Source: a virus
Reading direction: 5' to 3' (one strand)
Virus record (IMG/VR): IMGVR_UViG_3300017963_000772
Coordinates: 1 to 22,700 of that record
Length of the DNA: 22,700 nucleotides
Below, piece after piece: positions 1-22,700 of the stretch (position 1 is its first letter; every line of letters starts with the position of its first letter). The notes under the pieces were generated by a model. That model ran no database searches, was not told the DNA's origin, and saw only the letters and a program-made list of their open reading frames with translations. The position numbers and the translations under genes were made by a program.

Positions 1-191
1 CTAAGAGCGGAGTATCGAGAGAAGAATATGATAATTGGATATTGAATATGACCTTTAAAAAAGAGGTGGAAAGAATCAATGAGATGAGTATCGATTTTGT
101 GGAAAACCAATTGATGAGAAAAATCAATGATGGAGATTTGGCAGCAATCCAATTCTATCTAAAAACTAAAGGAAAAAAGAGAGGATACTAA
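1..191 (+). CDS. terS: Terminase small subunit, C-terminal part (5' end outside window)
   Basis: The open frame enters from the left edge (first full codon at 3) and stops with TAA at 189-191. The 62 visible residues begin KSGVSREEYDNW, then a helical stretch with FKKEVERINEMSIDFVENQL, and end in DGDLAAIQFYLKTKGKKRGY. This ending (a helix, then 'DG.LAAI.FYLKTKGK.RGY') is the typical C-terminus of phage small terminases of the phBC6A51-type helix-turn-helix family, and 'GVSRE.Y..W' is the end of their DNA-binding region. The protein recognises phage DNA and loads the large subunit for packaging. terL lies about 370 bases downstream, as expected. The N-terminal DNA-binding helices are outside the window, so recognition specificity cannot be read. 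Identification is from the motif and the position; confidence is high for the family. Confidence 0.85.
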   Translation, partial: KSGVSREEYDNWILNMTFKKEVERINEMSIDFVENQLMRKINDGDLAAIQFYLKTKGKKRGY

Positions 192-192
192 T

Positions 193-324
193 ATGGCGAA
201 GAATCAAGCATCTGCAAAAATAGAGAAAAAGAAAATAAGAAGAAAAGGGGTTCATGCAAAAACTAAAACCTCGAAAAATAAAAACTCAAGAAACTATAAA
301 AAACTCAATATAGGTCAAGGATAA
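193..324 (+). CDS. Small, very basic conserved phage protein between terS and terL
   Basis: A 43-residue frame starts with ATG one base after the terS stop and ends with TAA at 322-324. It is extremely rich in Lys, Arg, Asn and Ser and contains RRKGVHAKTKTS, then a run of NK/NS residues, ending NYKKLNIGQG. I recall very similar short proteins ('RRKGVHAKTKTSK...NYKK..GQG') next to terminase genes in Bacteroidetes phages, which is why I call this a real gene despite its size. No function is known to me. The charge suggests nucleic-acid or packaging-machine contact, which is inference only. The tight spacing to terS supports co-translation. Confidence 0.7.
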   Translation: MAKNQASAKIEKKKIRRKGVHAKTKTSKNKNSRNYKKLNIGQG

Positions 325-340
325 AAAGATATTGGAAATT

Positions 341-562
341 ATGAAAAACTATAAAGGAAGTACAAGATATATGATATTCAAGGATGAAGTTGAATCTCGA
401 TTAGGATACTCTCTATCTGAAGAAGAATTTGATTTATTTGGAAGATGGTTGGATGAAAATCTAAATGCTCAATTGGAATCAACTTTAGACTTTCAAATTG
501 ATTTCTGGGAAACCATGCGATTTGAAGAACCACCAGCAAAAATAAGTTCTAAAGTTATCTAA
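341..562 (+). CDS. Small hypothetical protein upstream of terL
   Basis: A 73-residue protein is read from the ATG at 341. A TTG at 332 in the same frame would add three residues, but ATG is preferred because every other gene here uses it. It is acidic and probably helical: MKNYKGSTRYMIFKDEVE, then a region with SLSEEEFDLFGRWLDENL and DFQIDFWETMRFEEPP. There is no signal peptide, membrane segment or known motif. It ends 2 bases before terL (TAA 560-562, ATG 565), so it is probably translated with it. I do not recognise the family. The packaging-gene neighbourhood makes a packaging or regulatory role possible but unproven. Confidence 0.6.
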   Translation: MKNYKGSTRYMIFKDEVESRLGYSLSEEEFDLFGRWLDENLNAQLESTLDFQIDFWETMRFEEPPAKISSKVI

Positions 563-564
563 AG

Positions 565-1719
565 ATGAAGGTTCAAACGACTATAGTATTTGAGGAGTTG
601 CTCAAATCTGATGAATTGGAAAAAAGACTAGTGGTTGCTCAAGGGGGAAGCCGCTCAGGGAAGACATATAACATTCTAATTTATTGGATATATAAATTGC
701 TTCAAGAAAATGGCAAAACTCTCTCTATAGTCAGAAAAACTCTCCCCTCATTGAAGAATACGGTACTAAAGGATTTGCAAGAAGTACTTGAGAAATTTGA
801 AATCTTTGACCCTTCAAAATGGCATAAGCAAGAAGGATATTATGAGTTACCAAATAAATGCATCATCAATTGGTTCTCAGTCGATGAACCTCAGAAGATT
901 AGGGGTTCAAAGAGAGATTATCTCTATTGCAATGAAGCAAATGAATTATCGATAGATGATTGGAACCAATTAATTTTTAGAACCACTGGCAAAGTGATTT
1001 GCGATATGAACCCTAGTGAATTGAGAAGCTGGGTATATGATTTGGAAAATAGAGATGATTGCTATTATTTCATTACGACATGGAAGGATAATCCATTCAT
1101 TGATAAAAACATCATCAAGGAATTGGAGAGTCTGAAATTCAAAGATGAGAACCTTTATCGAGTATATAATTTAGGTATCAAAGGGTTACCAACTTCACTG
1201 GTCTTTACCAACTTTAATACCATTGAGCAGATACCCCCTCAATCAAAGTTATTAGGAAGAGGATTGGACTTTGGATATAACGAGCCGACCGCATTGGTGG
1301 AAGTCTATAAGGATGATGATAATTTATATCTAAGAGAATTAATCTTTGCAAAGAATTATACAATGACTGATTTGATTTATCAGATGGAAAAATTGAATAT
1401 TGAAAAAACCGATACCATTTGGTGCGATTCAGCAAGTCCTCAGAATATTGAAGAGCTGAGAAGATATAGATTCAATGCAAAGCCAGTGAATAAGAAATCC
1501 ATTTTGCATGGTATAGATTTGATGAAAAGGCATAATCTCTTTATTGAGAATAGTTCTGAGAATATGAAAGTCGAATTTGCATCTTATAAGTGGAAGGTTG
1601 ATAAAAATGGTATATTATTGGATGTACCTGAGGATTCCAATAACCACTCAATCGATAGCATTCGATATGTCTTAGAAAGCGAACTAAATAAAAAATCAGG
1701 GAAAATAACTATAATATGA
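565..1719 (+). CDS. terL: Terminase large subunit (packaging ATPase and nuclease)
   Basis: This is the motor that pumps DNA into the prohead and cuts it. The 384-residue protein has an N-terminal ATPase with Walker A GGSRSGKT at residues 27-34. A Walker B-like strand KRDYLYCNE (about 116-124) carries the catalytic Glu at 124, followed by a coupling-type segment around NP 149-150. The C-terminal RNase H-like nuclease shows three acidic metal-ligand candidates: D235 in GLDFGYNEPTA, D288 in WCDSA, and D364 in HSIDSIRYVLE. The length is a little under the usual 400-550 but all motifs are present, so it looks intact. The ATG is two bases after the previous stop, and the TGA/ATG region overlaps the next gene by 4 bases (1716). 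The motifs resemble PBSX/Terminase_3-type large subunits. Confidence 0.95.
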   Translation: MKVQTTIVFEELLKSDELEKRLVVAQGGSRSGKTYNILIYWIYKLLQENGKTLSIVRKTLPSLKNTVLKDLQEVLEKFEIFDPSKWHKQEGYYELPNKCIINWFSVDEPQKIRGSKRDYLYCNEANELSIDDWNQLIFRTTGKVICDMNPSELRSWVYDLENRDDCYYFITTWKDNPFIDKNIIKELESLKFKDENLYRVYNLGIKGLPTSLVFTNFNTIEQIPPQSKLLGRGLDFGYNEPTALVEVYKDDDNLYLRELIFAKNYTMTDLIYQMEKLNIEKTDTIWCDSASPQNIEELRRYRFNAKPVNKKSILHGIDLMKRHNLFIENSSENMKVEFASYKWKVDKNGILLDVPEDSNNHSIDSIRYVLESELNKKSGKITII

Positions 1720-2399
1720 TTAAATTAGAAATTGGAAAATATAAGGTTGATTTGCCAGAGCAGATAACCATTGGTCAGTATTTGGAATATGAAAAAAATA
1801 GAAGCATTTATGTTAATAATCCTTCAAGGGTATTATCTCTATTCACCGGCATTCCATATGATGAAATGAAGAAGTTACCATTAGTGGATATCAGAGAAAT
1901 CGATGAGATAATCGGTCAGTTGATGAATATGGAAGTTGATAATCAGTTGGCAATCTATATCACTCATAATGGAAAAGAATATGGATTGGAAAAAGATTTC
2001 AGCAAACTCAGCTGGGGTGCATGGATTGATTTGGATGTCTATTCTCAAGATATCCTCAATAGTCTGCATAAGATATTGGCCATTCTATATAGACCTATCA
2101 AGCAAAAGAAGAAGGATGATTATATTCTTGAGGATTATGATAGCAAAGATATGGAAGAGAGAGCAACTGAATTTTTATCATTGCCGGTCAGCATTTGGTT
2201 CGGAGTCAGCAGTTTTTTTTTTCTAATCGCAAACTCATATATCAAAGATATGGAGGCTTCTTTGAAGTTTCAGATGAAGATGAACAAATTGATAGAGAGG
2301 GGGAAGAGAGTGATACCAAAGAGGCTCCATCGATATCTGCCGCAAGATTCTATTTCACCCTCACTTATGAGTTGGCAAAGCAGAATGTTTCACAAATGA
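1716..2399 (+). CDS. Tail assembly chaperone, short (0-frame) product
   Basis: A 227-residue frame overlaps terL by 4 bases. The N-terminus (IKLEIGKYKVDLPEQITIGQ, then LSLFTGIPYDEMKKLPL) matches a family I associate with tail assembly chaperones of Bacteroidetes siphophages: a small beta strand, 'P..ITI.QYLEYE', then a helical domain 'LFTGIP...K.LPL'. A hydrophobic helix containing SSFFFLIANSYIKDMEASLK lies at about residues 164-184. The 0-frame then becomes basic and atypical (KRVIPKRLHRYLPQDS) and stops at 2399. The -1 frame carries a much more protein-like continuation to 2512, the arrangement of lambda gpG/gpGT. The chaperones would coat the tape measure during tail assembly. They sit far (6 kb) from the tape measure gene here. 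The family call rests on recall; the frame arrangement is seen directly. Confidence 0.7.
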   Translation: MIKLEIGKYKVDLPEQITIGQYLEYEKNRSIYVNNPSRVLSLFTGIPYDEMKKLPLVDIREIDEIIGQLMNMEVDNQLAIYITHNGKEYGLEKDFSKLSWGAWIDLDVYSQDILNSLHKILAILYRPIKQKKKDDYILEDYDSKDMEERATEFLSLPVSIWFGVSSFFFLIANSYIKDMEASLKFQMKMNKLIERGKRVIPKRLHRYLPQDSISPSLMSWQSRMFHK

Positions 2400-2512
2400 A
2401 AGAAGTGGAAAAGGAACCATTATACTTATGCTTGAGTGTAGCTGCTCTAATGAAAGATAGAATCGAAGAGCAGAAAAAAGAAAATGAAAAAATGAAAAGG
2501 AATTTAAGATGA
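2195..2512 (+). CDS. Tail assembly chaperone, -1 frame extension (GT-like), probably made by ribosomal frameshift
   Basis: The frame -1 to the preceding gene is open through 2512. Its first ATG (2195) lies inside the upstream coding region and is unlikely to be the real start. The convincing part begins near 2303: an acidic linker (GEESDTKEAPSI), then SAARFYFTLTYELAKQNVSQ, a segment containing EVEKEPLYLCLSVAALMKDR, and a charged helical end. This looks like the second domain of a two-frame tail chaperone ('F..L.Y.LAK...S.M..VE..PLYLCL..LA...DR'). Joining the frames with one -1 slip gives a 265-residue fusion whichever slip point is used. The stop overlaps the next ATG by 4 bases (2509). Without frameshifting this frame would have no credible start, so expression as a separate protein is doubtful. 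Confidence 0.65.
   Translation: MVRSQQFFFSNRKLIYQRYGGFFEVSDEDEQIDREGEESDTKEAPSISAARFYFTLTYELAKQNVSQMKEVEKEPLYLCLSVAALMKDRIEEQKKENEKMKRNLR
2213..2222 (+). promoter_or_regulatory. Ten-T run inside the chaperone gene: alternative slip site
   Basis: Ten consecutive T (AG-T10-CTAA) are read as AGT TTT TTT TTT CTA in the 0 frame. It contains the classical slippery heptamer T TTT TTT and lies in the region where both frames are open (2195-2399), so a -1 slip here would also give the 265-residue fusion. It is also a place where transcriptional slippage or a sequencing length error could occur. Confidence 0.4.
2298..2306 (+). promoter_or_regulatory. Proposed -1 ribosomal frameshift site (G-run)
   Basis: 0-frame codons AGG GGG AAG form AGGGGGAAG. 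A ribosome with GGG (2301-2303) in the P site can slip back one base to GGG (2300-2302) with perfect re-pairing and continue in the -1 frame at GAA (2303). I prefer this site because the 0-frame protein up to here looks real and uses the window's normal codons, whereas the -1 frame between 2223 and 2300 uses rare codons such as CGC. It is not a perfect X XXY YYZ heptamer, so the exact site is inferred. Confidence 0.45.
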
Positions 2513-3213
2513 ATGAATATATAAGTTTTCATAAGATATTAGATTTGATAAAGCAGTACCAGCAATCATCAGCAAGATTGCATGATTTTGGATATGGAGA
2601 TATTGTCTACTTTATGAATGATAGTGGTACCACCACCAATTATCCATTTTTATTTGTTACTCCTCAGCTTATTTCATATGATGAAAATATCACCACTTAT
2701 TCTTTGCAACTCATTTTTGCCGATATCGTTAATACTGATTTATCCAATGAAGCAGATGTTGTTAGCGATATGAGCTTAGAAGCTAGAAGATTTCTCTCAG
2801 AAATAAGAAGGGGGTTTCTGTTCGATGATTTTGACTGTTCCCTTCCTGCATCGGCAACCCCTTTCTTTGAGAGATTTAACGACCATGTTGGAGGAGTGGT
2901 CTTAGATGTTGATATCACCATCTTTGAAGATATCAATGCATGCGATTTCTATCCATCTCCAACTGCGACTGGTACTGCGACTCCAACTCCGACTCCGACT
3001 TTTACACCAACCCCTTCAGTCAGTTGCAAGAATTATAGAATAACTAATACAAATGGTTTCTCCACTGATTATGATTATATTGATTGCGGTGGAAATCCTC
3101 AATCTGGTCAGGTTCTGGGGTACTTGAGTGCAGATATTTGCGCTCAATTAGGTACTGTTGTAATAACTAATGGTGCGACAGGAACAATAACTGATTTAGG
3201 AACAAGTTGCTAA
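2509..3213 (+). CDS. Neck/tail-completion protein with Pro-Thr linker and C-terminal Cys-rich module
   Basis: The protein has 234 residues. Residues 1-148 form a compact domain (helical start, then YPFLFVTPQLISYDEN, LQLIFADIV, DLSNEADVVSDMSLEARRFL and VGGVVLDVDITIFEDINACD). It resembles tail-terminator or connector proteins of Bacteroidetes phages ('FADKV..DLSNE.DVVSDM', 'DL.IFEDLNACDYP'). That family normally ends at this 'NACDF/Y' point. Here a linker of Pro/Thr/Ser repeats (about 149-171) follows, then a 63-residue domain starting SCKNYRITN and ending TDLGTSC, with YIDC.G and an IC.. motif. The same domain type occurs three times in the gene at 3761. The ATG overlaps the preceding stop. 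The core probably sits at the head-tail joint and the extra module would be displayed on the virion surface. The core role is inferred from neighbours and family recall; the added module is plainly visible. Confidence 0.7.
   Translation: MNEYISFHKILDLIKQYQQSSARLHDFGYGDIVYFMNDSGTTTNYPFLFVTPQLISYDENITTYSLQLIFADIVNTDLSNEADVVSDMSLEARRFLSEIRRGFLFDDFDCSLPASATPFFERFNDHVGGVVLDVDITIFEDINACDFYPSPTATGTATPTPTPTFTPTPSVSCKNYRITNTNGFSTDYDYIDCGGNPQSGQVLGYLSADICAQLGTVVITNGATGTITDLGTSC
2953..3021 (+). repeat. Pro-Thr repeat linker 1
   Basis: The DNA is built from ACT/CCA/CCG/GCG codons encoding PSPTATGTATPTPTPTFT and on to TPSV. It separates the conserved neck domain from the Cys-rich module. Words such as ACTCCGACTCCGACT recur in the other linkers of the window. 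Confidence 0.85.
3022..3210 (+). repeat. Cys-rich module, copy A
   Basis: This is a 63-residue domain with the pattern C-x2-Y-x-I-x-N ... Y-x-D-C-x-G-x2-Q ... IC-A ... G-x-x-x ... C. It is the first of four related copies (others at 4706, 4955 and 5192) and is C-terminal after linker 1. The copies are clearly divergent at protein level, so they are old or were separately acquired. Confidence 0.7.
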
Positions 3214-3219
3214 TAGATT

Positions 3220-3759
3220 ATGGAAGAAAGAATCCTAAATCAAATTGCAGATACCGTAAAAAAAAGCATTCAGGCTGAGTTGAAGATTCCTCGCAGAAGC
3301 AAGTCATATGATGGCTCAGTCAATAAGAGGGGTACCTCTGCACCTATATCATCAGGGAATCTCTATAAGAGTGTTAATGTATTCTGGGAAAATGATTTTG
3401 ATGACCCCTTTCCAACTTTGATAATTGATTTTGGAAATGCGGATTATTGGTACTGGGTCAATTATGGAAGAAGACCAGGAAGATATCCACCACTCAAAGC
3501 GATAGATAAGTGGGTAACTCAAAAAAAAGGTTTTGCTCAAATCATCAGAGGGCCTGGTGGAAGATTTACAAAAAGAAAATCTTTGGTATTCCTTATTAGA
3601 AGAAGCATTGCAACATTAGGATATCGAGGAACCTTTTTTATTGAAAATGCTTTGGAAAAAAGCAAAAATAAAGTTTTAGAAGAAATTGGAGAAGCTGCTG
3701 CTCTATATATAGACAAAATAATCTCTCAGGGCTTAGTATTCACTCAATCAGAAAATTGA
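3220..3759 (+). CDS. Neck/head-tail joining protein, HK97 gp10-like
   Basis: A 179-residue protein starts at ATG 3220, 6 bases after the previous stop. The N-terminal helix (MEERILNQIADTVKKSIQAE) is followed by a variable strand region. Then come WYWVNYGRRPGRYPPLKAID with a following KWV, a short insertion with GPGGRFTKRK, then FLIRRSIATLGYRGTFF and a long C-terminal helix with ALEKSKNKVLEEIGEAAALY. 'NYGR.PG..PP...I..W' followed by 'I...G..G..F...A' is the hallmark of the HK97 gp10/tail-completion family, which forms a ring between connector and tail. It sits with another neck-type gene (2509) and before the tail-tip genes. It looks intact and of normal length. Assignment to gp10-like is by motif. 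Confidence 0.7.
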   Translation: MEERILNQIADTVKKSIQAELKIPRRSKSYDGSVNKRGTSAPISSGNLYKSVNVFWENDFDDPFPTLIIDFGNADYWYWVNYGRRPGRYPPLKAIDKWVTQKKGFAQIIRGPGGRFTKRKSLVFLIRRSIATLGYRGTFFIENALEKSKNKVLEEIGEAAALYIDKIISQGLVFTQSEN

Positions 3760-3760
3760 T

Positions 3761-5374
3761 ATGATAGATATAATTGATTCACCTCTCAAGTTTCAACCTG
3801 TATATTCTGACGGGTTGTTTTTCACTATTTCGGCAGATACTTCCGACAAATATAAATTTAGATATACTTATGATGTCTATATCAATAATGAGGTGGTCTT
3901 TAGAGGAAAGACTAATCCTAATCCATATGACTTAGGGGTTGTTGATATTTCAAGAATCGTAAAAACCTATACCAGCAATAATCCAATCAGTGATTATAAT
4001 GGTACTCCGATTTATACTCATCAGACTTTTCCATTTTCTAGACCCTATCAAAGCGAAACCATTCCATATCAAGTATATTTTGGATATGAATATGCCAACT
4101 CAGCAGATGGTGCAATAACTGGTTTCACTGGCTCAGGTGATACCATCGGAAATCCATCGATAACCAATGGAACTTATAAGACCTTCTATTCGACAATGGG
4201 CGTTAATGGAAGAGCAACTCAGCAGGATTTTGATATCGGCCCATTTGTTCTTTCAGGTTCTCCTATAGGTCAATATCCAACCACTTCAGGATTATTCCTG
4301 ACCAATTCGCCAAGGATTAGAAATATTCAATCATCAGAATATTATACTTTAGCATTCACCAACTATTATCTTTCTGAGGATATTCTCTCAGAACCTTATT
4401 ATGTTGAATATAATTATTATGATTCAGATGGAACTCTAATCGATACTGAGCAATATAGCAATTTGACCTTCAATGGAGGAGGCCCAATGGTTGATTGCAC
4501 CACCGTATATCCATCCTATTATAATGTTATTCTGACCGGAAATACTGATTGGAATACTCTATATGTTGGAGCAGGCCCTGCTAATAATCCTAATTTCCCT
4601 GCAAATTGCACTCAATATACAGTTCAATTATTTGGAAAATTCACTGGTTCGACTTCTCCGATACCAGGAACTCCGACTCCAACCCCGACTCCTTCGATAA
4701 CTCCTGGATGCGGTACTTGCTATACTTATGATATTGAGAATCCTAGTCTGACGACTTATTGCGATGTCTATTATACTCAATGCTCATTTGGACCAGTAAC
4801 TAAGATAACCATTCCACCAGGTCAGATTGCAAGGATTGATTGCGCTTGCGATGGTTCATTGATTTATGAATGCGCATTGATAGTAACAGTGGTTTCTTCT
4901 TGTACCTCAGAACCAACTCCAACTCCTAGCTCCACTCCAACTCCGACTCCTGCATGTATTTGCGAAGCCTATACTGTCGATAATAACTCATTGGAATCTC
5001 AAGCATTTGTTCAATTCCTTGATTGCAGCGGAGTAACTCAGAATTTGGTATTAGACCCTGATACTGGATTATCCTTCTGTGCATGTTTAGGTTCAATTCA
5101 GACCACTGGTGATACCACCACTTATGATGGAGGATTATGTAACCCCGAACCTAGTCCAACTCCAACCCCGACTCCTTCGGCGACACCTCCTTATTGCGAA
5201 TGTATCGAATATCTCCTTGAGAATGAAGACCCCTTCTTCCAAAGTTATTCTTATACTGATTGTTATGGAGATGTTCAAGTTGGTTCTTTGGCTGGCTTCC
5301 AGCAATTGATTATATGCGCTTGTAGAGATTCCGTAAGTGGTTCTATAATAATAAGTGAAATAGGAGTCTGCTAA
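3761..5374 (+). CDS. Tail-tip structural protein carrying three PT-linked Cys-rich modules
   Basis: The protein has 537 residues. Residues 1 to about 298 form a beta-rich domain (MIDIIDSPLKFQPVYSDGLF, YKFRYTYDVYINNEVVFRGK, NPYDLGVVDISRIVKTYTS). It resembles the N-terminal half of a Bacteroidetes-phage tail/baseplate protein. Its usual C-terminal half ('NRYGHFDYYTF') is found here as the separate next gene at 5400. After residue 298 comes an alternation: PT linker, module B (4706-4903), PT linker, module C (4955-5140), PT linker, module D (5192-5371), stop. The modules share C..Y...N, (D/Q)C.(F/G) and CAC.(G/D)S patterns with the module in the gene at 2509. The modules probably project from the tail tip. 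It is separated from the previous gene by one base. Role is inferred from location and family resemblance; the modular build is direct observation. Confidence 0.65.
   Translation: MIDIIDSPLKFQPVYSDGLFFTISADTSDKYKFRYTYDVYINNEVVFRGKTNPNPYDLGVVDISRIVKTYTSNNPISDYNGTPIYTHQTFPFSRPYQSETIPYQVYFGYEYANSADGAITGFTGSGDTIGNPSITNGTYKTFYSTMGVNGRATQQDFDIGPFVLSGSPIGQYPTTSGLFLTNSPRIRNIQSSEYYTLAFTNYYLSEDILSEPYYVEYNYYDSDGTLIDTEQYSNLTFNGGGPMVDCTTVYPSYYNVILTGNTDWNTLYVGAGPANNPNFPANCTQYTVQLFGKFTGSTSPIPGTPTPTPTPSITPGCGTCYTYDIENPSLTTYCDVYYTQCSFGPVTKITIPPGQIARIDCACDGSLIYECALIVTVVSSCTSEPTPTPSSTPTPTPACICEAYTVDNNSLESQAFVQFLDCSGVTQNLVLDPDTGLSFCACLGSIQTTGDTTTYDGGLCNPEPSPTPTPTPSATPPYCECIEYLLENEDPFFQSYSYTDCYGDVQVGSLAGFQQLIICACRDSVSGSIIISEIGVC
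4658..4705 (+). repeat. Pro-Thr repeat linker 2
   Basis: It encodes PIPGTPTPTPTPSITP between the N-terminal tail domain and module B. It shares ACTCCGACTCC-type words with the other linkers. Confidence 0.85.
4706..4903 (+). repeat. Cys-rich module, copy B
   Basis: This is a 66-residue module: CGTCYTYDIENPS ... YTQCSFGPVTK ... RIDCACDGSL ... VVSSC. It keeps C..Y.I.N, a central C.(F/G), CAC.GS and a terminal C. It is the most divergent of the four copies. Confidence 0.65.
4904..4954 (+). repeat. Pro-Thr repeat linker 3
   Basis: It encodes TSEPTPTPSSTPTPTPA between modules B and C. Confidence 0.85.
4955..5140 (+). repeat. Cys-rich module, copy C
   Basis: This is a 62-residue module: CICEAYTVDN ... 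VQFLDCSGVTQNLVL ... SFCACLGSIQ ... GGLC. It matches copy A closely at DC.G..Q. Confidence 0.7.
5141..5191 (+). repeat. Pro-Thr repeat linker 4
   Basis: It encodes NPEPSPTPTPTPSATPP between modules C and D. CpG codons (CCG, TCG, GCG) are prominent. Confidence 0.85.
5192..5371 (+). repeat. Cys-rich module, copy D
   Basis: This is a 60-residue module: YCECIEYLLEN ... YSYTDCYGDVQVGSL ... IICACRDSVSG ... IGVC, immediately before the stop codon. It has the same cysteine pattern as copies A and C. Confidence 0.7.
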
Positions 5375-5399
5375 TAAATAAAAAATAGAGATATAAGAT

Positions 5400-5933
5400 A
5401 TGGCAATAGTTCCGCAACCAGTACCAAATACCGCAATACCTGGCATCTGCTCAGGATATACCGCAGTCAGTGAAATATTCACTTTCAATGTCGAAGAAAT
5501 TTGCACCAGAGCAGGTGCGACTCAATTGCAATTGATGTGGTTGAATAGATATGGTCACTTTGACTATTACACTTTCACTGCAGGAAAAGATGAGGGTCTA
5601 AATATTGAAAGGCAGACTTATAAGCAATGGAATGTCGACTGGGGTTCTGATAATCCATTGAAGACTCGATATTCAAGGGGAACCACCGATTATTCAGTTA
5701 GCATGGTTGAAACTCATGTTATCAATTCAGGATTTATCAATCAGGCTGATATGGTATTTTTAGAAGAATTATATACTTCCAATGATGTATATGAAATAAC
5801 CACTGATGGAGAACTTAGACCAATCTCAATAATTTCAACTGAGTATATTAGAAAAAATAAGGGAAATAAATCCATCGTCAATTTGGAATTGACTAATACC
5901 TATTCAAATAACATTAAACTCTTAGGTCAATAA
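5400..5933 (+). CDS. Tail-tip protein, C-terminal-half homologue (split partner of the gene at 3761)
   Basis: A 177-residue protein starts at ATG 5400, 25 bases after the previous stop behind an A-rich leader. It contains FTFNVEEICTRAGATQLQLM then WLNRYGHFDYYTFTAGK, ERQTYKQW and a C-terminal part with INQADMVFLEELYTSNDVYE. In the Bacteroidetes-phage tail proteins I recall, 'C....L.(W/F)LN(R/K)YG..D(Y/F)(Y/F)TF ... R..Y' forms the second half of one longer polypeptide whose first half looks like residues 1-298 of the gene at 3761. The two genes here look like a fission, with the Cys-rich modules added at the break. The two products probably assemble together in the tail tip. It is followed after one base by the next tail gene (5935). 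Confidence 0.6.
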   Translation: MAIVPQPVPNTAIPGICSGYTAVSEIFTFNVEEICTRAGATQLQLMWLNRYGHFDYYTFTAGKDEGLNIERQTYKQWNVDWGSDNPLKTRYSRGTTDYSVSMVETHVINSGFINQADMVFLEELYTSNDVYEITTDGELRPISIISTEYIRKNKGNKSIVNLELTNTYSNNIKLLGQ

Positions 5934-5934
5934 T

Positions 5935-8484: not shown

Positions 8485-8488
8485 TAAG

Positions 8489-11680: not shown

Positions 11681-11698
11681 AAAATAATATTTATCATT

Positions 11699-13981: not shown

Positions 13982-13984
13982 ATT

Positions 13985-14593: not shown

Positions 14594-14618
14594 AAATAAA
14601 AAATAAGCAATAATAAAA
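14594..14618 (+). promoter_or_regulatory. A-rich translation leader of the capsid gene
   Basis: This 25-base spacer is almost only A and T and leads into an AAAAATG start, with no Shine-Dalgarno. Flavobacteria are known to favour A-rich, Kozak-like positions before the start codon instead of SD pairing, so this probably marks strong translation. Confidence 0.45.
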
Positions 14619-15575: not shown

Positions 15576-15613
15576 TCAATCTAAATAAACCAAAACTAAA
15601 AAAATAATAAAAA
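15576..15613 (+). promoter_or_regulatory. A-rich leader of the tail tube gene
   Basis: This 38-base AT-only-like spacer ends in an A-rich stretch just before ATG 15614. No SD sequence is present. It is similar to the capsid gene leader; both precede genes needed in hundreds of copies. Confidence 0.4.
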
Positions 15614-16162: not shown

Positions 16163-16190
16163 AAATAATCAAAATACTCCCTATTTTGGA

Positions 16191-16221
16191 GGGGGGGTCT
16201 TCAGCAACCCCCCCTTTTTTT
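16191..16221 (+). terminator. Rho-independent terminator after the tail tube gene
   Basis: Seven G (16191-16197) plus T pair with A plus seven C (16207-16214), giving an 8-bp stem with an 8-base loop, followed directly by seven T (16215-16221). It is the strongest stem in the window and lies 28 bases after the tube stop codon. It closes the highly expressed capsid/tube block and would lower expression of the tip/fibre genes. A weaker CTCC/GGAG hairpin just upstream (16177-16191) overlaps it by one base. Confidence 0.9.
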
Positions 16222-16246
16222 AGCCAAGAAATATTACCAATATATT

Positions 16247-17413
16247 ATGATTAAATGGAATGGAAGGCAGTTATATCCTGCAAGAAAAACCCCTTATAAA
16301 GCAGATATCAATGAATTGATGAAACCTTTGAGTGAAAAAGGATTCAAAGGAAATTTGTGGGGTTCTGTTATTTTGAATGTTGAAAAGGAGGTTGAAACTA
16401 CTCCTGCGGTGACTCCATCGAATACTCCGACTCCTACGATAACTCCTTCAGCAACTGCTAATCCAACTCCGACTCCATCGGCGACCGCTAATCCAACTCC
16501 GACCCCGACTTATACTCCATCATCGACTCCTCTATCATATCTATTAGACTTATATTCAACTGATGTATATAATGCTCATTCACTTAGATTATTGAGTTCA
16601 AGTTATGTTGGTGATGCGATTAGAGTCAGAAGAGATTTAGACCAGGCTGAAACTGATATTGGATTTATCGGTCAAGATTTGGATATAGCAACTTTGGAAA
16701 CCTTTATGTCAGGTTCAACTAGAGGATATATCACCACCTGGTACGACCAGACAGGAAATGGAAGAGATATGGAACAAGCAACTGCATTAGGTCAGGCAGT
16801 TATTTATGAGAGTGGTGCAGTATTAGTTGATGGAAATGGAAAAGCAAGAGCTAAGTTCAATGGAAATGCTGGAAATAATAATCCTAATTGGTATAGCAAT
16901 AATTCAGGTATTGCGACAGCAAATCTCGCAGTATTTGCAGTTGCTGAAAGAAATACAACATCAGGTGTTGAATTTACCTTATGGACATCATCTGACCCCT
17001 TATTGAATAATGATGCTACTAATAAGGGAACTCCAATTTTGACCACTGAATTGAATAATGTTGCAGATACCTTAGGAACCTTCAATAACTGGGTTAGCTA
17101 TACTGGTCAAGTAACTGTATCTCAATCACCTGATTCAATAACCGAACCATTCATTGGAACTTATGATAGAAGTGGAACTACCGTAACTATCACTTCAGTA
17201 TCCGCTAATGTTAATGTAACTAATTCAGGTACTCAAACTTGGAGTTCATCACCAACAGGAAATAATAAGCAAGCAATGGGCTTATCAGGTACTATTGCAG
17301 GAGTTAACTGTTGGGCAGGATATATTCAAGAAATGGTGGTATATGACCAATCAAAGACAACATCAGCATCAGGAATAAAAACTAATATGAATTCTTATTA
17401 TGGCATCTATTAA
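16247..17413 (+). CDS. Tail-tip protein: anchor, Pro-Thr linker, concanavalin/arabinofuranosidase-like lectin domain
   Basis: The protein has 388 residues. Residues 1-50 form a short anchor (IKWNGRQLYPARKTPYKADI, then GFKGNLWGSVILNVEKE). Residues 51-95 form a Pro-Thr linker with an internal 10-residue repeat (SATANPTPTP twice). Residues about 96-388 form a beta-sandwich domain: AHSLRLLSSSYVGDAIRVRR, DIGFIGQDLD, GYITTWYDQTGNGRDMEQAT, and an end with AGYIQEMVVYDQSKTTSASG. 'YSLR.L...Y.G.AIRVRR..D....DIGF......T.WYDQSGNGR.A.Q' is the pattern of the GH54-like arabinofuranosidase/concanavalin-fold domain often found in phage and Bacteroidetes surface proteins. It probably binds or acts on a cell-surface glycan. 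Whether it is catalytic cannot be read here. It is preceded by the terminator and a short AT-rich gap, so it may have its own promoter, though none was recognised. Confidence 0.7.
   Translation: MIKWNGRQLYPARKTPYKADINELMKPLSEKGFKGNLWGSVILNVEKEVETTPAVTPSNTPTPTITPSATANPTPTPSATANPTPTPTYTPSSTPLSYLLDLYSTDVYNAHSLRLLSSSYVGDAIRVRRDLDQAETDIGFIGQDLDIATLETFMSGSTRGYITTWYDQTGNGRDMEQATALGQAVIYESGAVLVDGNGKARAKFNGNAGNNNPNWYSNNSGIATANLAVFAVAERNTTSGVEFTLWTSSDPLLNNDATNKGTPILTTELNNVADTLGTFNNWVSYTGQVTVSQSPDSITEPFIGTYDRSGTTVTITSVSANVNVTNSGTQTWSSSPTGNNKQAMGLSGTIAGVNCWAGYIQEMVVYDQSKTTSASGIKTNMNSYYGIY
16397..16531 (+). repeat. Pro-Thr repeat linker 5, with a 30-base tandem repeat
   Basis: This 45-residue linker is rich in TP, SAT and NPTPTP. 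Two 30-base units lie in tandem (16448-16477 and 16478-16507), encoding SATANPTPTP twice and differing mostly at third positions (TCA GCA ACT against TCG GCG ACC). This implies an older duplication. Confidence 0.85.
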
Positions 17414-17669
17414 TATTATAGGATATAAATTTTTAACAGAGCAATCAGGAATCGATGCAATTGAATCATTGAATGTTCATTATGGATTGCCTCAATCAGC
17501 AACTGACGAAACTCAGGATTGGTGTTTTTTATATACCGCTGATATGGATAATCCAACATTTTGGTATATTTCATTTGATGAGAGCATGAGAGTGGTATTA
17601 GGTAACCCTGAAACTTTTGATGTTACCTATCCTGACCCCTATCAATTAGATGGATATGTTGGTGCATAA
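17400..17669 (+). CDS. Small conserved phage protein of unknown function
   Basis: An 89-residue protein has its ATG at 17400 inside the end of the lectin gene (14-base overlap). The sequence reads INIIGYKFLTEQSGIDAIES, then NVHYGLPQSATDETQDW, NPTFWYISFDESMRVVLGNP and ETFDVTYPDP. I recall similar short proteins ('...E..A..A...CN..YG.P..PDD.T..W......PKFWYI.YDESL.PVLG.P..F.V..PDP') in the tail-fibre regions of environmental phages, but know no function. A compact alpha/beta fold seems likely. Overlaps on both sides suggest co-translation with the tip proteins, so a fibre assembly or attachment role is possible. Confidence 0.65.
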   Translation: MASINIIGYKFLTEQSGIDAIESLNVHYGLPQSATDETQDWCFLYTADMDNPTFWYISFDESMRVVLGNPETFDVTYPDPYQLDGYVGA

Positions 17670-17883
17670 AAAAGTAACCATTGATGGAATTGAATATGAA
17701 AGATATGAAATTAACAAAGTTGAATGGACTTTTGCAAAGAATTTGGTCGGGGTTCTGGTTATTTATTATGATGATGAAAATAAGAGCGGTTCTCTTATTA
17801 GAACTCATTATTTCAAGGGTGAAGAGGAAATCAGTGTAAATAAATTAATTGAGCAAGTAATAAGGATTCACGATGGGCTATAG
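17650..17883 (+). CDS. Small hypothetical protein
   Basis: A 77-residue frame overlaps the previous gene by 20 bases. An ATG at 17656 is an equally good start and would give 75 residues. Visible pattern: [20 protein letters not shown], a strand region with [16 protein letters not shown], then [20 protein letters not shown]. It looks like a small alternating-strand fold with a final helix. No motif of known function is seen. It also overlaps the next gene by 11 bases, so the three small genes from 17400 to 18247 form one overlapping chain. Confidence 0.6.
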
Positions 17884-18247
17884 ATTCAGACCAACCATTT
17901 TCAGTGACTATTTAGGTGAAGAAAGACCATTATTAGGAATCAAAATTTCTAATGTTCCTGATGGGCCTGCACCGACTCCTAGTCCGACTGCGACTCAGCC
18001 AGTCACTCCGACTCCAACTCAGACTCCTAGTGGAACTCCTAGCATTACTCCTAGTAATACTCCAACTTATACTCCGTCAGGAACTCCTAATCCAACTCCG
18101 ACTCCGACAATAACTCCGTCAGAAACTCCTAATCCGACTCCGACTCCGACTGTTACACCATCGCCAGCAGTTTTATTCGATATTCTAACGGAAGGCAGTG
18201 ACCCTATTTATACAGAGAGCGATGAAGCCATAAATTATGAACATTAA
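17873..18247 (+). CDS. Anchor plus long Pro-Thr linker with a short acidic tail, lacking an obvious terminal domain
   Basis: The protein has 124 residues. Residues 1-31 ([29 protein letters not shown]) look like a short virion anchor. Residues 32-98 are almost wholly Pro/Thr/Ser repeats. The remaining 26 residues are [20 protein letters not shown] and a YEH end. The tail resembles the 'ILTEDGD.I.TE...' motif that ends or links many phage structural proteins. Compared with the gene at 16247 (anchor, linker, lectin), the expected large display domain is missing. Either this is a stalk for a partner protein, or a display module was lost. The stop is 10 bases before the fibre gene at 18258. Function is not recognised; the architecture is clear. 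Confidence 0.6.
17966..18166 (+). repeat. Pro-Thr repeat linker 6, with a 42-base tandem repeat
   Basis: This is the longest linker (67 residues). Two 42-base units lie in tandem (18074-18115 and 18116-18157), encoding [14 protein letters not shown] and [20 protein letters not shown] codon pairs dominate. Confidence 0.88.
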
Positions 18248-18257
18248 AAAATAAAAA

Positions 18258-19895
18258 ATGAGTGCAGTAAAGATATCTCAATTGCCAGAATGGTCAGGTA
18301 CCCCCTCTGACACAAGATGGTTTGTTATGAATAATTCGGGGGAAACAGAGACTTTCAAATTCTCAGGATATACATCTTTGATTGGGCCCGGAACTGGTAC
18401 TCAAAGTATTAGGTCAATCTATTATGGTGCAGGTGCATCAACAGGTGATTATAATGTAGTTTTAGGAGGTATAAATAACCAAATCAATAGTGGTGTTGAA
18501 CAGACTTTATTAGGGGGGCATGCTAACTATATCCAATCAACAGGAACAGGAAATTCGGGGCATACGATTGTAGGTTCTTATAGTTCTTATATTGACCATA
18601 CGGGTCAATGGCCTGGTCTTGCCGGAATCTATAACTCATATGATTCTTATATCTATGGAGAAAGTTGGTCAAATGTTCTTATTGGTGGAACTAATAATTA
18701 TACATCACACGCTCCTATGGCTGTTGTTATTGGAGGACAAGACAATAGTGTCAGAGGACAACCTGGTGGATTTGCTGGTGGCCGAGGTGTTGTTATTGGT
18801 GGATTTGGAAACTACATAAATGAATGGAGTGCTCAAGAAAACTCTGGTATTTTTGTTGGATATAATTCATATATAGACACTGCAGCAAAGTCAGTCCTAG
18901 TTGGTGGTGCTTCAAGTAATATTCAGTCAGGTGGTCCAGCAGGTATTTTTATGTCTGATAATACAAGTATTGTTGGTGCTAACTATAATACATCAGCTGT
19001 TGGAACAACCGCAGGTTCTTTGAGTTCTTGTTCTCACGGACATATGGCGGGTGGTTATGGTAATACTTTAACTCAAGGAAACTGCTTGTTTGTATCAGGA
19101 AGAGGAAACCAACTGACAGGAAATTATAATGATTGCGATAGTGGTATCTATCAGTCTTGGAATTCAATTTCATATCAAGCGGGTAAAGCTTCAGTAATAT
19201 TAGGTGGATATTATAACAGATTATATGATTCTTCGCATTATGCACTTATTGCGGGTGGTGAAGGAAACTATATATATAATACTAGTGAAAGTTCCGCAAT
19301 CATTTCCTCAAAATATTCAACTATTCGCGATGTTGATGATACTTGTGTAATATTAGGAGCATCAGGGGGAACTATAAATGGTATTAGTTCTGGAGCTCGT
19401 AATATTGTTAATATTGGTTCTTATAATACTGATTTCACTGCATATGGTACTATACCAACAAATACTATTATGCTTGGTCTATTCAATAGAACTGTTGATA
19501 GTACTTCTCAAGTACCAGTATCAGCAACTACATTTACTGAAAATCTCCATATCTATAGAACCGAGAGTAAAGAAACTCTTACAGGTCAAACAGCGACAGG
19601 TGATGTGACGGTTGACTTATCGGCTCAATCAGTCTTTGAATTTGAGATTACAGGTGATATCACTTCAATCACCTTTACTAATTGGAGAGAAGGTGGTATT
19701 TACGAATTTGTAGTTCATAACACAGGTTCATATACCATTACCGCAGCAGGTGTGACTTTAGGTGGAACTGCTAACACAGTCTATGCGAAAGGTGGAGCAA
19801 TCAATCCAACCAACAACGGATACACTTTCTATCATATGATGATTATAAATGGTAAAGGTTGGTTGAATGAGCATCTCAATTTCCAAGCATTATAA
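18258..19895 (+). CDS. Tail fibre with YadA-like/beta-roll repeat shaft
   Basis: The protein has 545 residues. The N-terminus (MSAVKISQLPEWSGTPSDTR, MNNSGETETFKFSGYTSL) is the common phage fibre start 'KISQLPE....SD...V...G.T.KF....L' that ties a fibre to the tail. Residues about 60-400 hold irregular repeats of the kind VVLGGINNQINSG, NVLIGGTNNYT, AVVIGGQDNSV, VILGGYYNRLYDS and ALIAGGEGNYIYN (hydrophobic pair, (I/G)GG.xN), like the left-handed beta-roll of YadA-type heads. Residues about 430-545 (ATGDVTVDLSAQSVFEFEIT, SITFTNWREGG, NNGYTFYHMMIINGKGWLNE) form a C-terminal domain found on other phage fibres. It is probably trimeric and receptor-binding. It uses ACA codons more than the tail genes, hinting at a different history. 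An A-rich leader precedes ATG. Confidence 0.75.
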   Translation: MSAVKISQLPEWSGTPSDTRWFVMNNSGETETFKFSGYTSLIGPGTGTQSIRSIYYGAGASTGDYNVVLGGINNQINSGVEQTLLGGHANYIQSTGTGNSGHTIVGSYSSYIDHTGQWPGLAGIYNSYDSYIYGESWSNVLIGGTNNYTSHAPMAVVIGGQDNSVRGQPGGFAGGRGVVIGGFGNYINEWSAQENSGIFVGYNSYIDTAAKSVLVGGASSNIQSGGPAGIFMSDNTSIVGANYNTSAVGTTAGSLSSCSHGHMAGGYGNTLTQGNCLFVSGRGNQLTGNYNDCDSGIYQSWNSISYQAGKASVILGGYYNRLYDSSHYALIAGGEGNYIYNTSESSAIISSKYSTIRDVDDTCVILGASGGTINGISSGARNIVNIGSYNTDFTAYGTIPTNTIMLGLFNRTVDSTSQVPVSATTFTENLHIYRTESKETLTGQTATGDVTVDLSAQSVFEFEITGDITSITFTNWREGGIYEFVVHNTGSYTITAAGVTLGGTANTVYAKGGAINPTNNGYTFYHMMIINGKGWLNEHLNFQAL

Positions 19896-19925
19896 ATAAA
19901 TCATAAATCATAAAAAAATAAAAAA
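19896..19925 (+). promoter_or_regulatory. A-rich leader before the small gene at 19926
   Basis: This 30-base spacer consists of two near-copies of ATAAATCATAAA-type sequence and an A-rich end before ATG, without SD. It is the same style as the capsid and tube leaders. No promoter motif was recognised. Confidence 0.35.
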
Positions 19926-20165
19926 ATGAATTCAGCAACTATTATAGAAATCGTACCAGTCAATTATCCTGTTTCTGCAGTTACCATTAATAATGTAATG
20001 GTTCAACTCGACCAGACAGCTCAAATTGGTGGTCATATATATGGCGATATAGTTTCATTGCCCTATCAGGTGAATTTGACTCAAGAAGAGTATGCCGCCT
20101 GGGGAAGCGATGATAATTATATTAGCAATTTGGTTATTAATAAATTAGGATATACAAAGGCATAA
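19926..20165 (+). CDS. Small hypothetical protein
   Basis: A 79-residue protein: SATIIEIVPVNYPVSAVTIN, NVMVQLDQTAQIGGHIYGDI, YQVNLTQEEYAAWGSDDNYI, then a short helix ending NKLGYTKA. It is beta-rich in the first half, and 'LTQEEYAAWGSDD.Y' suggests a helix packing on the sheet. I do not recognise a characterised family. It stands between the fibre gene and another small structural-looking gene (2-base gap to 20168), so a minor virion or fibre-associated role is likely but unproven. Confidence 0.6.
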   Translation: MNSATIIEIVPVNYPVSAVTINNVMVQLDQTAQIGGHIYGDIVSLPYQVNLTQEEYAAWGSDDNYISNLVINKLGYTKA

Positions 20166-20167
20166 GA

Positions 20168-20599
20168 ATGGTCTATTTGAATGTTGGAGAAAACAATCAG
20201 GTGATTGCGACTTGCTCAGTGAATAAGCAATTGAGCAGTCCAACCTATTTGTGGAGCATGAGGCATAAGCTAACCAATGAATCCTGGAAATTCATTCCAT
20301 TTCGGGTGCAACCTTCTGTTTCTTATTCTCCATCTTATGACCAATTTATGATAAATTGCGATTATAATTCACCTCAGGTATATACCGCATCGACTGCAAA
20401 TGATACTGCCAATTTACATTTGACTGCGGGTGATTACTTTATAAAGGTATATGAGCAGACTTCAACCACCAACCTCAATCCAATGCTCTCATATGATGTT
20501 GTATATGAAACTATTGGAAGGGTGATTGGAACTGGAACCACTGCTCCTAATATTTCTTATACGGGGAGTACCGACATATTTAAAGTATATAAAGGATGA
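20168..20599 (+). CDS. Conserved phage protein of unknown function, probably a minor structural protein
   Basis: A 143-residue beta-rich protein: VYLNVGENNQVIATCSVNKQ, SSPTYLWSMRHKLTNESWKF, then IPFRVQPSVSYSPSYDQFMI, LTAGDYFIKVYEQTSTTNLN and VVYETIGRVIGTGT. The pattern 'L..G..N.V..T......L..P.YL(F/W)....(L/N)TN......F', then 'L..G.Y...VYEQ' and 'E.G...V', is familiar from many Bacteroidetes phages near tail-tip genes, where it is annotated hypothetical. It looks like a single immunoglobulin-like sandwich. Its stop overlaps the portal start (ATGA at 20596-20599), so the two are translationally coupled. Confidence 0.65.
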   Translation: MVYLNVGENNQVIATCSVNKQLSSPTYLWSMRHKLTNESWKFIPFRVQPSVSYSPSYDQFMINCDYNSPQVYTASTANDTANLHLTAGDYFIKVYEQTSTTNLNPMLSYDVVYETIGRVIGTGTTAPNISYTGSTDIFKVYKG

Positions 20600-21666
20600 T
20601 ACAATTAGAAAAATTTAATTTTGGAACCAATACCCTTACATCATTCAAAGAGGTATCCAATAGAAATGAGTTATTCATTCGCTGGGGCGATGATAATCTC
20701 TTCGTTAACGAATTATATAAGTACCTTGATGCTTCCCCTATCCATAATGCTTGCATTCGCTCCAAAGTTGATAATTCCTTTGGTCAAGGGTATATCACTG
20801 ATTATAAGATTAATAATAGGCAGTATATCAATGATATCGGAAAGCAGTTATTCTTTGAATTATATGTTACTGGTAATATCTTCTTAGAGATAGTCTGGAA
20901 GCAAAATAGAGCAGAGGGAATTCACGGGTTTCATGTTATTCCATCGAAATTTATGAGGGTTCATAAGCCAGCTGAATTAGGTGGAGAAGTAACTAAGTAT
21001 CTTTATTGCGCAGACTGGGAGCAATGGAGAAAAGCAGGTATAGTTGAATTTAGTGAATTTGACCCGATGAATTTCACTGATAGACAGATTATTCATATCA
21101 AGCAATATCAACCTGGCTATCAATATTATGGTACTCCTGACTATCTGTCAGTTATCAATGATATCAAATTGAACCATGAAATCACTGTCTATAACCTCTC
21201 CAATCTTATCAACGGGGCTAATCCTAGCTTGTGGGTGCATTTCAATGTTCCGGCACCAGATTCTCAGAATGAGCAAGACCAAATTATGAGAAGCATTGAG
21301 GATAGATATGTTGGTTCCGATAAAAGTGGAAGGGTGATAGTTTCTTATGGTGATTCAACTGAGAAACCCGATATCACTCAAATCACTTCCAACTTGACTC
21401 AAGGATTCTATGCTGAAGTATTTGAATTGGTTCAAAAACAAATTATGTCGGGTCATAAGATTGTAGATGGAAGTCTAATCGGATTGCCCAATCCTGGCGG
21501 GTTTAGCAGCTCAGCAGAGCAATTAGAAACCGCTTATAGATTATTTATGAATACCTCTATAGTACCAACTCAGAAGTTCATTGCAAGAGAACTTCAGGTG
21601 GTTTTAGAACTAATGTATCCAGGAGAACAGATAACCCTTGAAATCCAACAAAATCAAATACTATAA
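20596..21666 (+). CDS. Portal protein (HK97/PBSX-like)
   Basis: A 356-residue protein: LFIRWGDDNLFVNELYKYLD, ASPIHNACIRSKVDNSFGQG, then LFFELYVTGNIFLEIVWKQN, IHGFHVIPSKFMRV, IIHIKQYQPGYQYYGTPDYL, VINDIKLNHEITVYNLSNLI, GANPSLWVHFN and LVQKQIMSGHKIVDGSLIGL. 'GDDN..P/VNEL' followed by 'S...ACI..K....G.G', 'L...GN.F.E......' and 'YG.P.Y......I.L......YN...I.NGA.PS..I.F' is the standard layout of small PBSX-type phage portals. It forms the dodecameric DNA channel that the terminase docks on. The start is coupled to the previous gene, and the stop overlaps the connector gene by one base (TAATG). Position far from terL is unusual. The length is near the low end for portals but the fold core is complete. 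Confidence 0.85.
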   Translation: MIQLEKFNFGTNTLTSFKEVSNRNELFIRWGDDNLFVNELYKYLDASPIHNACIRSKVDNSFGQGYITDYKINNRQYINDIGKQLFFELYVTGNIFLEIVWKQNRAEGIHGFHVIPSKFMRVHKPAELGGEVTKYLYCADWEQWRKAGIVEFSEFDPMNFTDRQIIHIKQYQPGYQYYGTPDYLSVINDIKLNHEITVYNLSNLINGANPSLWVHFNVPAPDSQNEQDQIMRSIEDRYVGSDKSGRVIVSYGDSTEKPDITQITSNLTQGFYAEVFELVQKQIMSGHKIVDGSLIGLPNPGGFSSSAEQLETAYRLFMNTSIVPTQKFIARELQVVLELMYPGEQITLEIQQNQIL

Positions 21667-22298
21667 TGAATAATGTTTTGCTCATATCAGAAGAGATTCT
21701 GAAGAACTATACCGCAATCAACGAGAATGTCCAATCGGATGAGCTCCGTTTCTGCATTCTCCAAAGTCAAAATATCTTTATACAGGAGTCATTAGGTACG
21801 AACCTCTACAATAAGATGCTTGATTTGGTCAATACTGGAGATATATATGATTCTTCAAATAGTAACTATAAAGCCTTATTAGATAACTTTATTCAACCAA
21901 CTCTTATTAGTTACTCTTATTATTTAGGACTTGATAATTTTGCAGTCAAATGGATTTCAGTTGGATTGGTTCATAATTCAAGCGAGCAAGGTCAGAGCAT
22001 CGATTTCAAGATGTTCCAATATCTAAAGTCAAATTCGAAAAATCAGGCAGAGTTCAATGATAATCTTCTTAGAAGGCATTTGGTATTCAAGAATTATTTA
22101 TATCCTGAATATAATGATGGAAACTTAAATGACGGTCAGTTACCCCCTGAGTCAAATAATGGTTTCAAATCGAGTATTACTTTACCAGGTGCAGGATATT
22201 ATTGGTATCGCCAAAATAATAAGTATAAATCATCTGGTACCAATCTATATGTTGGAGATTGTCCTTTTCCAGAATGGTACGGTCACTCAAATAACTAA
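21666..22298 (+). CDS. Head-tail connector, gp6-like
   Basis: A 210-residue protein starts inside the portal stop (TAATG). The helical N-terminus reads VLLISEEILKNYTAINENVQ, DELRFCILQSQNIFIQESLG, TNLYNKMLDLV, then KALLDNFIQPTLISYSYYLG and a long helical middle. 'L..E..K..T.I..NV......I..AQ...I...LG..LY..L...' followed by '...Y..LL...I.P.L....' is typical of adaptor proteins of the gp6/DUF6712 kind in Bacteroidetes phages, which attach under the portal. The last about 50 residues (PPESNNGFKSSITLPGAGYY to CPFPEWYGHSNN) are Gly/Pro/aromatic-rich and likely extended. Coupling to the portal gene supports the role. Confidence 0.75.
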   Translation: MNNVLLISEEILKNYTAINENVQSDELRFCILQSQNIFIQESLGTNLYNKMLDLVNTGDIYDSSNSNYKALLDNFIQPTLISYSYYLGLDNFAVKWISVGLVHNSSEQGQSIDFKMFQYLKSNSKNQAEFNDNLLRRHLVFKNYLYPEYNDGNLNDGQLPPESNNGFKSSITLPGAGYYWYRQNNKYKSSGTNLYVGDCPFPEWYGHSNN

Positions 22299-22302
22299 TT
22301 AG

Positions 22303-22602
22303 ATGGAAGTGATTCTGACTAGTATTCTGACTTTCGCAGCAACTATAATTGGATTCTTCTTTGGTCAAAGAAAGAATAATGCTGAAACTGATAGTATCGT
22401 AATAAAGAATGTTAAAGAGATTCTTGATGTATATTCAAGAACTATTACTGAATTAAGAGATGAGGTTCATTCTCTCAAAGAAAAGATTATGGAATATGAG
22501 AAGCAGATTGAGCAATTGAATTGTGAATTGACCGCATTTCGCAAAGAAATGAAAAAACCCTCAAGCCGAAGCAAGAGGGTTCTTGAAGAGAAAAACAAAT
22601 AA
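22303..22602 (+). CDS. Small membrane-anchored coiled-coil protein
   Basis: A 99-residue protein. Residues 3-21 (VILTSILTFAATIIGFFFGQ) form one transmembrane helix with a positive RKN next to it. Residues about 28-85 form a coiled coil (TDSIVIKNVKEILDVYSR, ELRDEVHSLKEKIMEYEKQI, EQLNCELTAFRKEM), then a basic end with SSRSKRVLEEKNK. It is the last gene of the rightward operon, 4 bases after the connector stop. Similar short TM plus coiled-coil proteins occur in phages near lysis or virion genes. Holin-accessory, inner spanin-like or host-envelope roles are all possible, and no lysis enzyme is in this window to decide. Its 3' end overlaps a terminator of the opposing gene. Confidence 0.65.
   Translation: MEVILTSILTFAATIIGFFFGQRKNNAETDSIVIKNVKEILDVYSRTITELRDEVHSLKEKIMEYEKQIEQLNCELTAFRKEMKKPSSRSKRVLEEKNK
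22552..22581 (-). terminator. Rho-independent terminator for the leftward gene, UUCG-capped
   Basis: On the minus strand AACCCTC (22581-22575) pairs with GAGGGTT (22562-22556). The loop contains a GC-TTCG-GC mini-hairpin, a UUCG tetraloop, and the stem is followed by a T run (complement of the A run at 22552-22557). It lies about 30 bases past the stop of the minus-strand gene and inside the last codons of the + strand gene. Confidence 0.7.
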
Positions 22603-22612
22603 CTAAAAATAA

Positions 22613-22700
22613 TCAGGAGGTATAATAATCTCCGCAGGATAATTTTCTCGACTTTGCCAAACCTAATAATGCAAAGTATAATTTATCATCCAAATCGAAG
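22613..22700 (-). CDS. C-terminal end of a convergent minus-strand gene, product unknown
   Basis: Read on the minus strand, an open frame enters from the right edge and ends with TGA (22615-22613). The 28 visible residues are FDLDDKLYFALLGLAKSRKL then SCGDYYTS. Codon choice (TTA/TTG Leu, GAT Asp, AGA Arg) is like the rest of the phage, and a well-formed terminator follows the stop, so I take this as a real gene. The segment is too short to name a family. It marks the switch from the rightward structural block to a leftward block. The GGAGG-like bases at 22616-22620 are only the complement of its last codons. Confidence 0.6.
   Translation of the reverse strand, partial: FDLDDKLYFALLGLAKSRKLSCGDYYTS

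Follow-up and report, generated by a model that had tools for sequence, protein, structure and literature searches.

Clade-wide loss of GATC in uncultured tailed phages

The window analysed in this study is the whole 22,700-bp stretch of an IMG/VR virus fragment that carries terminase, neck, tape measure, head protease, probable capsid and portal genes (Table 1). It spans most of the structural gene region of a small tailed phage whose complete relatives are ∼28–31 kb; therefore, ∼6 kb of the window's genome, mostly small genes, lies outside the record. The relatives' contigs are circularly permuted with respect to the window, and those of G005, G007 and G008 possessed terminal overlaps of 87–119 bases. 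The XkdF-like protein has a long N-terminal part containing a weak HAD/polynucleotide-kinase-like stretch at residues ∼467–587. Threonine-proline repeats of the form PTPTPSxTPTP occur in structural-region proteins encoded at 2509–3213, 3761–5374, 16247–17413 and 17873–18247.

Table 1. Coordinates of genes and sequence features in the 22,700-bp window.
Feature	Coordinates	Strand	Details
GATC-free whole window	1..22700	.	0 found, 77–98 expected
Terminase large subunit	565..1719	+	PHROG 2, E 2e-34; query for collecting and ordering clade members
Asp GAC codons before C (26 in total)	808..21282	+	808, 2881, 3403, 5054, 5228, 6814, 7750, 9740, 10856, 12797, 14808, 14865, 15228
Same 26 Asp GAC codons, continued	808..21282	+	15486, 15785, 16640, 16745, 16994, 17345, 17634, 18200, 18594, 20010, 20339, 21061, 21277
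Tail completion/Neck1-like protein	3220..3759	+	PHROG 5, E 1e-11
Tape measure protein	8489..11680	+	PHROG 25337, E 1e-14
XkdF-like head protease region	11699..13981	+	Peptidase_S78_2, residues 604–733
Probable major capsid protein	14619..15575	+	158 viral relatives, best 80 at 76–87% identity
Portal protein	20596..21666	+	PHROG 33693, E 5e-26

According to an exact count, the window contains no GATC. A Markov expectation calculated from trinucleotide counts was 97.9 (∼98) sites. When synonymous codons were permuted among the 24 open reading frames, which preserved the proteins and codon usage, 77.2 ± 6.0 sites were expected. The original prediction that GATC is wholly absent was thus borne out by the count and by both nulls (98 and 77); it had named a near-zero expectation in codon-preserving shuffles as the contrary outcome, and the minimum among 300 shuffles was 62. 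As GATC is its own reverse complement, the absence holds for both strands. As a control that needs no model, we counted the non-palindromic orderings of A, C, G and T: these occurred at a mean of 72 per strand, and GATA, GATT and GATG were present at normal or high frequencies.

GATC was by far the strongest absent tetranucleotide of the window under the Markov null, and it was the only word eliminated under both nulls. The palindromes previously listed as still present were correctly identified; ACGT and CGCG, which did not appear in that list, were rare (1 and 2 copies, respectively) and had low expectations (3.6 and 6.7). The non-palindromic words ATCCC, CTACC and CTCAC were low under the Markov null, and we make no claim regarding them. 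Overall, GATC is far below expectation after correction for composition and coding, as is characteristic of restriction-site avoidance. TTAA was partly depleted in the window, with 51 copies versus 133 (Markov) or 159 (codon shuffle) expected, perhaps reflecting an old or weak second avoidance. TTAA was also low in L014, L029, L033 and L034.

The avoidance was visible in all three codon phases of the window. As originally predicted, Asp switched to GAC before a C-initial codon: GAC was used in 26 of 26 such cases versus 33 of 374 elsewhere (Fisher p = 8e-25). The sites cited in support of this switch (near 811, 3403, 5053, 6812, 9738, 10857 and 14869) were real and 0–4 bases off, their exact positions being 808, 3403, 5054, 6814, 9740, 10856 and 14865. 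Ile and Ser, not mentioned in that prediction, provided equally clean signs. More specifically, ATC was never used for Ile after G (0/98 versus 154/456 elsewhere; p = 6e-16), and TCN was never used for Ser after NGA (0/18 versus 411/572 elsewhere; p = 3e-10).

Relatives were gathered using three queries: the terminase, the capsid protein and the methylase of one relative. The terminase query, from which 80 viral relatives were kept, provided the comparison with relatives that had been proposed as a check and revealed that the loss is clade-wide. GATC was exactly 0 in 61 of the 70 distinct leaves of the terminase-defined clade (summed expectation 2,024). In terms of the observed/expected ratio, 63 of the 70 leaves were at or below 0.1, five were partial and two exceeded 0.4. 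Among the best 80 of the 158 capsid relatives, GATC occurred only in L137 (4 of 15 expected) and L180 (1 of 10). Seven complete or near-complete genomes (G001, G002, G005, G006, G007, G009 and G011) had 0 of 52–120 expected sites. In distant terminase relatives (L057–L080, mostly 34–42% identity), GATC was ordinary or reduced but not eliminated, the exceptions being short or closer loci, and four named phages carried 47–122 copies. GATC was also missing from phages with very different structural genes, whose terminases are ∼34% identical.

GATC was back in approximately five scattered lineages, at observed/expected ratios of ∼0.1 to 0.85. These returns, read off the leaf order of the terminase tree without a fitted model, were located at L005, the L022/L029/L033/L034 group, L233/L256, L052 and L237. 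L237 contained 37 of 62 expected GATC sites yet lacked seven other palindromes, indicating that the pressure is site-specific. L237 and L220, in which GATC was 0 of 63, derive from the same sample (IMG 3300042868). The occurrence of both states in one sample excludes a library artefact.

We also examined the sites at which GATC-tolerant relatives (G008, G003, G004 and L237) align with the window. None of 91 aligned GATC sites was kept in the window. For G008, the window retained 0 of 48 GATC sites, as compared to 19 of 64 GATA and 26 of 65 GATT sites. Both amino acids were the same at 24 of the 91 sites, as in the change from GATCCA to GACCCG, indicating that the site was lost there by synonymous change. 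The remaining sites lie where the protein sequences themselves differ, which is expected for relatives this divergent. The claim that selection acts on GATC itself was therefore upheld by the codon shuffles, the phase-specific codon switches, the permutation controls and the homologous sites of G008. Together, these data demonstrate that the absence of GATC is conserved across the clade, is independent of codon usage and is specific, inasmuch as other palindromes vary independently. They also demonstrate that GATC has repeatedly come back, partly or fully, in some lineages.

The relatives eliminated further words in member-specific sets that included ACGT, CATG, GTAC, TGCA, AGCT, CTNAG, GANTC, ACNGT, TTTAAA and others, with up to ∼20 motifs eliminated in a single genome. 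Gapped palindromes (CTNAG, GANTC, ACNGT, TCNGA, GTNAC and GGNCC) and six-base palindromes (TTTAAA, ATTAAT, AAATTT and TATATA) were among those lost. Codon shuffling alone flagged CG-containing words in control phages and we therefore relied only on words that were low under both nulls. In G002, ACGT, AGCT, CATG, GTAC, TCGA and TGCA occurred in 0–2 copies versus 41–86 expected for each (Markov). L261 had zero copies of ACGT, CATG, GATC, GTAC, TCGA and TGCA, while its non-palindromic orderings of A, C, G and T had a mean of 45 per strand and a minimum of 34.5. In L207, 22 motifs passed the codon test, almost all of which were low under the Markov null too, and 14 sites remained of ∼720 expected. 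In L186, L152 and L160, essentially GATC alone was eliminated. Whereas ACGT, CATG, GTAC, TGCA, AGCT and TCGA flipped between present and absent among close relatives, GATC was missing almost everywhere.

The eliminated words look like Type II sites and differ between members; they are Type II-like palindromes and not the non-palindromic permutations of these. The non-palindromic orderings of the four bases stayed common in relatives with one exception: in L099 (G004), positions 1–19916, AGTC/GACT was present at 0 of ∼57–60 expected copies, which is unusual for an asymmetric four-base site. The non-palindromic CATCC was eliminated in several members. AATT was nearly eliminated in L022 (part of G003, L097–L098; 5 of 133) and L014 (2 of 82), and was normal in the window.

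Evidence bearing on the host came from start-site context and terminase relatives. In the window, a Shine-Dalgarno-like word preceded 2 of 22 genes, no more than the 13.5% background, and the leaders were A-rich. Few Shine-Dalgarno words and A-rich leaders are typical of Bacteroidota. Flavobacterium and Phocaeicola phages ranked first among the terminase matches, and a genome scan with the terminase yielded 12 matches, mostly in Bacteroidota, none of which exceeded 42% identity. A capsid search of 395 Bacteroidota genomes gave no match, capsid and tail protein searches in Bacteroidota genomes found nothing, and no close named phage relative was found. Overall, start-site context and terminase similarity suggest that the host phylum is Bacteroidota, the host probably being an aquatic member.

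We then considered GATC restriction genes, a search for which had also been proposed. Sau3AI-type and DpnII-type systems exist in Bacteroidota but are uncommon. Sau3AI-like genes occurred in 4 of the 296 genomes sampled. One of these four was tested: it belongs to the Sau3AI family (E 6e-169) and adjoins a cytosine-5 methylase. For DpnII, 7 of the 296 genomes had matches above the cut-off, of which 1 was strong; this gene is flanked by a Dam-type methylase on one side and another adenine methylase on the other.

In 17 related records, no Dam-type D12 methylase (PF02086) was found. This fits the claim that the phage does not rely on Dam-type methylation, with the qualification that the window's genome is incomplete by ∼6 kb. 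Other methylases were present in G001, G004, G005 and G008. A DPPY methylase is common to the GATC-tolerant G008 and G004, but its family also occurs on >50 contigs with 0 GATC. We rejected this enzyme as an explanation of tolerance as most contigs with the family have no GATC. No methylase motif was found in G003, although this genome is tolerant. Overall, no methylase exclusive to GATC-tolerant members was found, contrary to what protection by a phage-encoded methylase would predict. On the methylase tree (L107:1984–2808, relatives L193–L261), tolerant contigs cluster in places. This family combines a constant core with an insert that follows 'DKR' and ranges from a few to >100 residues.

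GATC loss very probably represents restriction-site avoidance against host Type II systems, of which the GATC-directed one would be near-universal. In the proposed mechanism, hosts of the clade would carry a GATC-cutting Type II system (DpnII/MboI- or Sau3AI-like), the phage DNA would lack protective GATC methylation, and selection would remove GATC sites, in part visibly through synonymous changes. The agent of selection is inferred to be a restriction endonuclease encoded by the host. The original proposal already took a GATC-specific restriction system of the host as the simplest cause, and it remains so given the elimination, in relatives, of many other restriction-type palindromes in member-specific sets, a pattern that is the signature of Type II restriction-site avoidance.

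The conservation of the loss could also reflect selection by a non-orthodox host defence that reads GATC, such as a phosphorothioation-linked or BREX-like system. Loss of GATC is far more conserved than that of other motifs (63/70 leaves at or below 0.1 versus 29/59 assessable for ACGT, the next by count), pointing to a system unlike the others, which are patchy. We nevertheless consider such a defence unlikely. The window contained the Dnd-linked words GAAC and GTTC at normal frequency (89/102 and 98/79 found/expected, respectively), and the remaining eliminated words resemble ordinary Type II sites in their behaviour. Moreover, reports of site elimination concern almost exclusively orthodox Type II systems (PMC6286503). 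A phage-encoded nuclease that cuts GATC, for example in degrading host DNA, would force the phage to be GATC-free and would account for clade-wide conservation of a single motif. This is very unlikely: no gene family was found that is shared by the seven GATC-free genomes compared and missing from the three tolerant ones, which argues against such a nuclease, and GATC is also missing in phages with the very different structural genes described above. The nearest to such a pattern was a small structural-region protein (6/7 versus 0/3) that is not recognisable as a nuclease.

For phiX174 and other enterobacteria phages, GATC loss has been proposed to allow escape from methyl-directed mismatch repair (MutH/Dam); in the present clade, this appears extremely improbable. 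phiX174 does lack GATC, and restoring ∼20 sites lowered its mutation rate eightfold, but its authors themselves call the selective forces unclear (PMC5014478). Such escape would cover GATC only, leaving the loss of many other palindromes, which differ from member to member, unexplained. The MutH domain occurred in 4 of 296 Bacteroidota genomes, only in proteins of 463–481 aa, the layout of the Sau3AI restriction enzyme. That classical MutH was not seen in this sample weakens the mismatch-repair idea, and bears on the host only if the latter belongs to Bacteroidota. Finally, composition, codon bias and sequencing artefact found no support and are refuted by the counts: none of the 300 codon shuffles came near zero, words of the same composition are common in the window, and L220 and L237 differ within one sample.

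Site avoidance, including complete GATC loss, is already known, but it is unusual for the loss to be nearly fixed across an entire clade and accompanied by large, changing sets of further lost sites. Among prokaryotic viruses, avoidance is strongest in non-temperate phages, and the compositional bias of GATC was <1 in every one of the 46 phages with hosts encoding corresponding REases (Rusinov et al. 2018, PMC6286503). As in our clade, palindromic Type II sites were eliminated in those phages. However, elimination (bias <0.1) concerned 3.9% of phage-site pairs, as compared to almost the whole clade for GATC here, and single clade genomes eliminate up to ∼20 motifs. Staphylococcus phages K and fRuSau02 (Twort-like) have no GATC sites, which was attributed to host restriction enzymes (PMC5618024). 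These are large myoviruses of a Gram-positive host, whereas the clade comprises small phages with Bacteroidota-type genes, among whose relatives many other motifs besides GATC are eliminated. phiX174 shares the complete loss with the window, but is a 5.4-kb phage of a Dam/MutH host (PMC5014478), for which mismatch repair is a candidate cause, one that does not fit the present clade. Flavobacterium psychrophilum phage FPSV-S2 and Phocaeicola phage BV200P1, whose terminases are each ∼34% identical, contain GATC (47 and 122 copies, respectively), unlike the window. According to the codon test, each nonetheless eliminates a few palindromes, namely CATG (2/58) and CGCG (0/28) in FPSV-S2 and CCGG (0/48) in BV200P1.

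Descriptions of site loss are usually confined to a single phage and a single site. The well over a hundred uncultured relatives constitute a natural experiment on the gain and loss of sites, in which GATC was lost almost everywhere and came back in approximately five lineages, while a dozen or more other motifs come and go. The clade would let the restriction repertoire of an unidentified host be read from virus DNA alone, and would allow gains and losses of host restriction systems to be ordered. It also raises the question of why a single specificity would be near-universal in one host group if such systems appear to be uncommon across the phylum. As GATC systems are uncommon in Bacteroidota and GATC loss is nearly universal in the clade, the host group would be unusual. 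Tentatively, this group may possess a near-universal, long-conserved GATC-reading defence, unlike the usual patchy Type II systems, together with an exceptionally large, strain-variable restriction arsenal; each phage genome of the clade might then read as a list of the restriction specificities of its recent hosts, a possibility that we consider rather doubtful. As a separate observation, the non-structural regions of L095–L112 encode a family of small cysteine-rich proteins (YFCRxCGDY...); each of the ten fuller genomes that were compared contained it, often in multiple copies.
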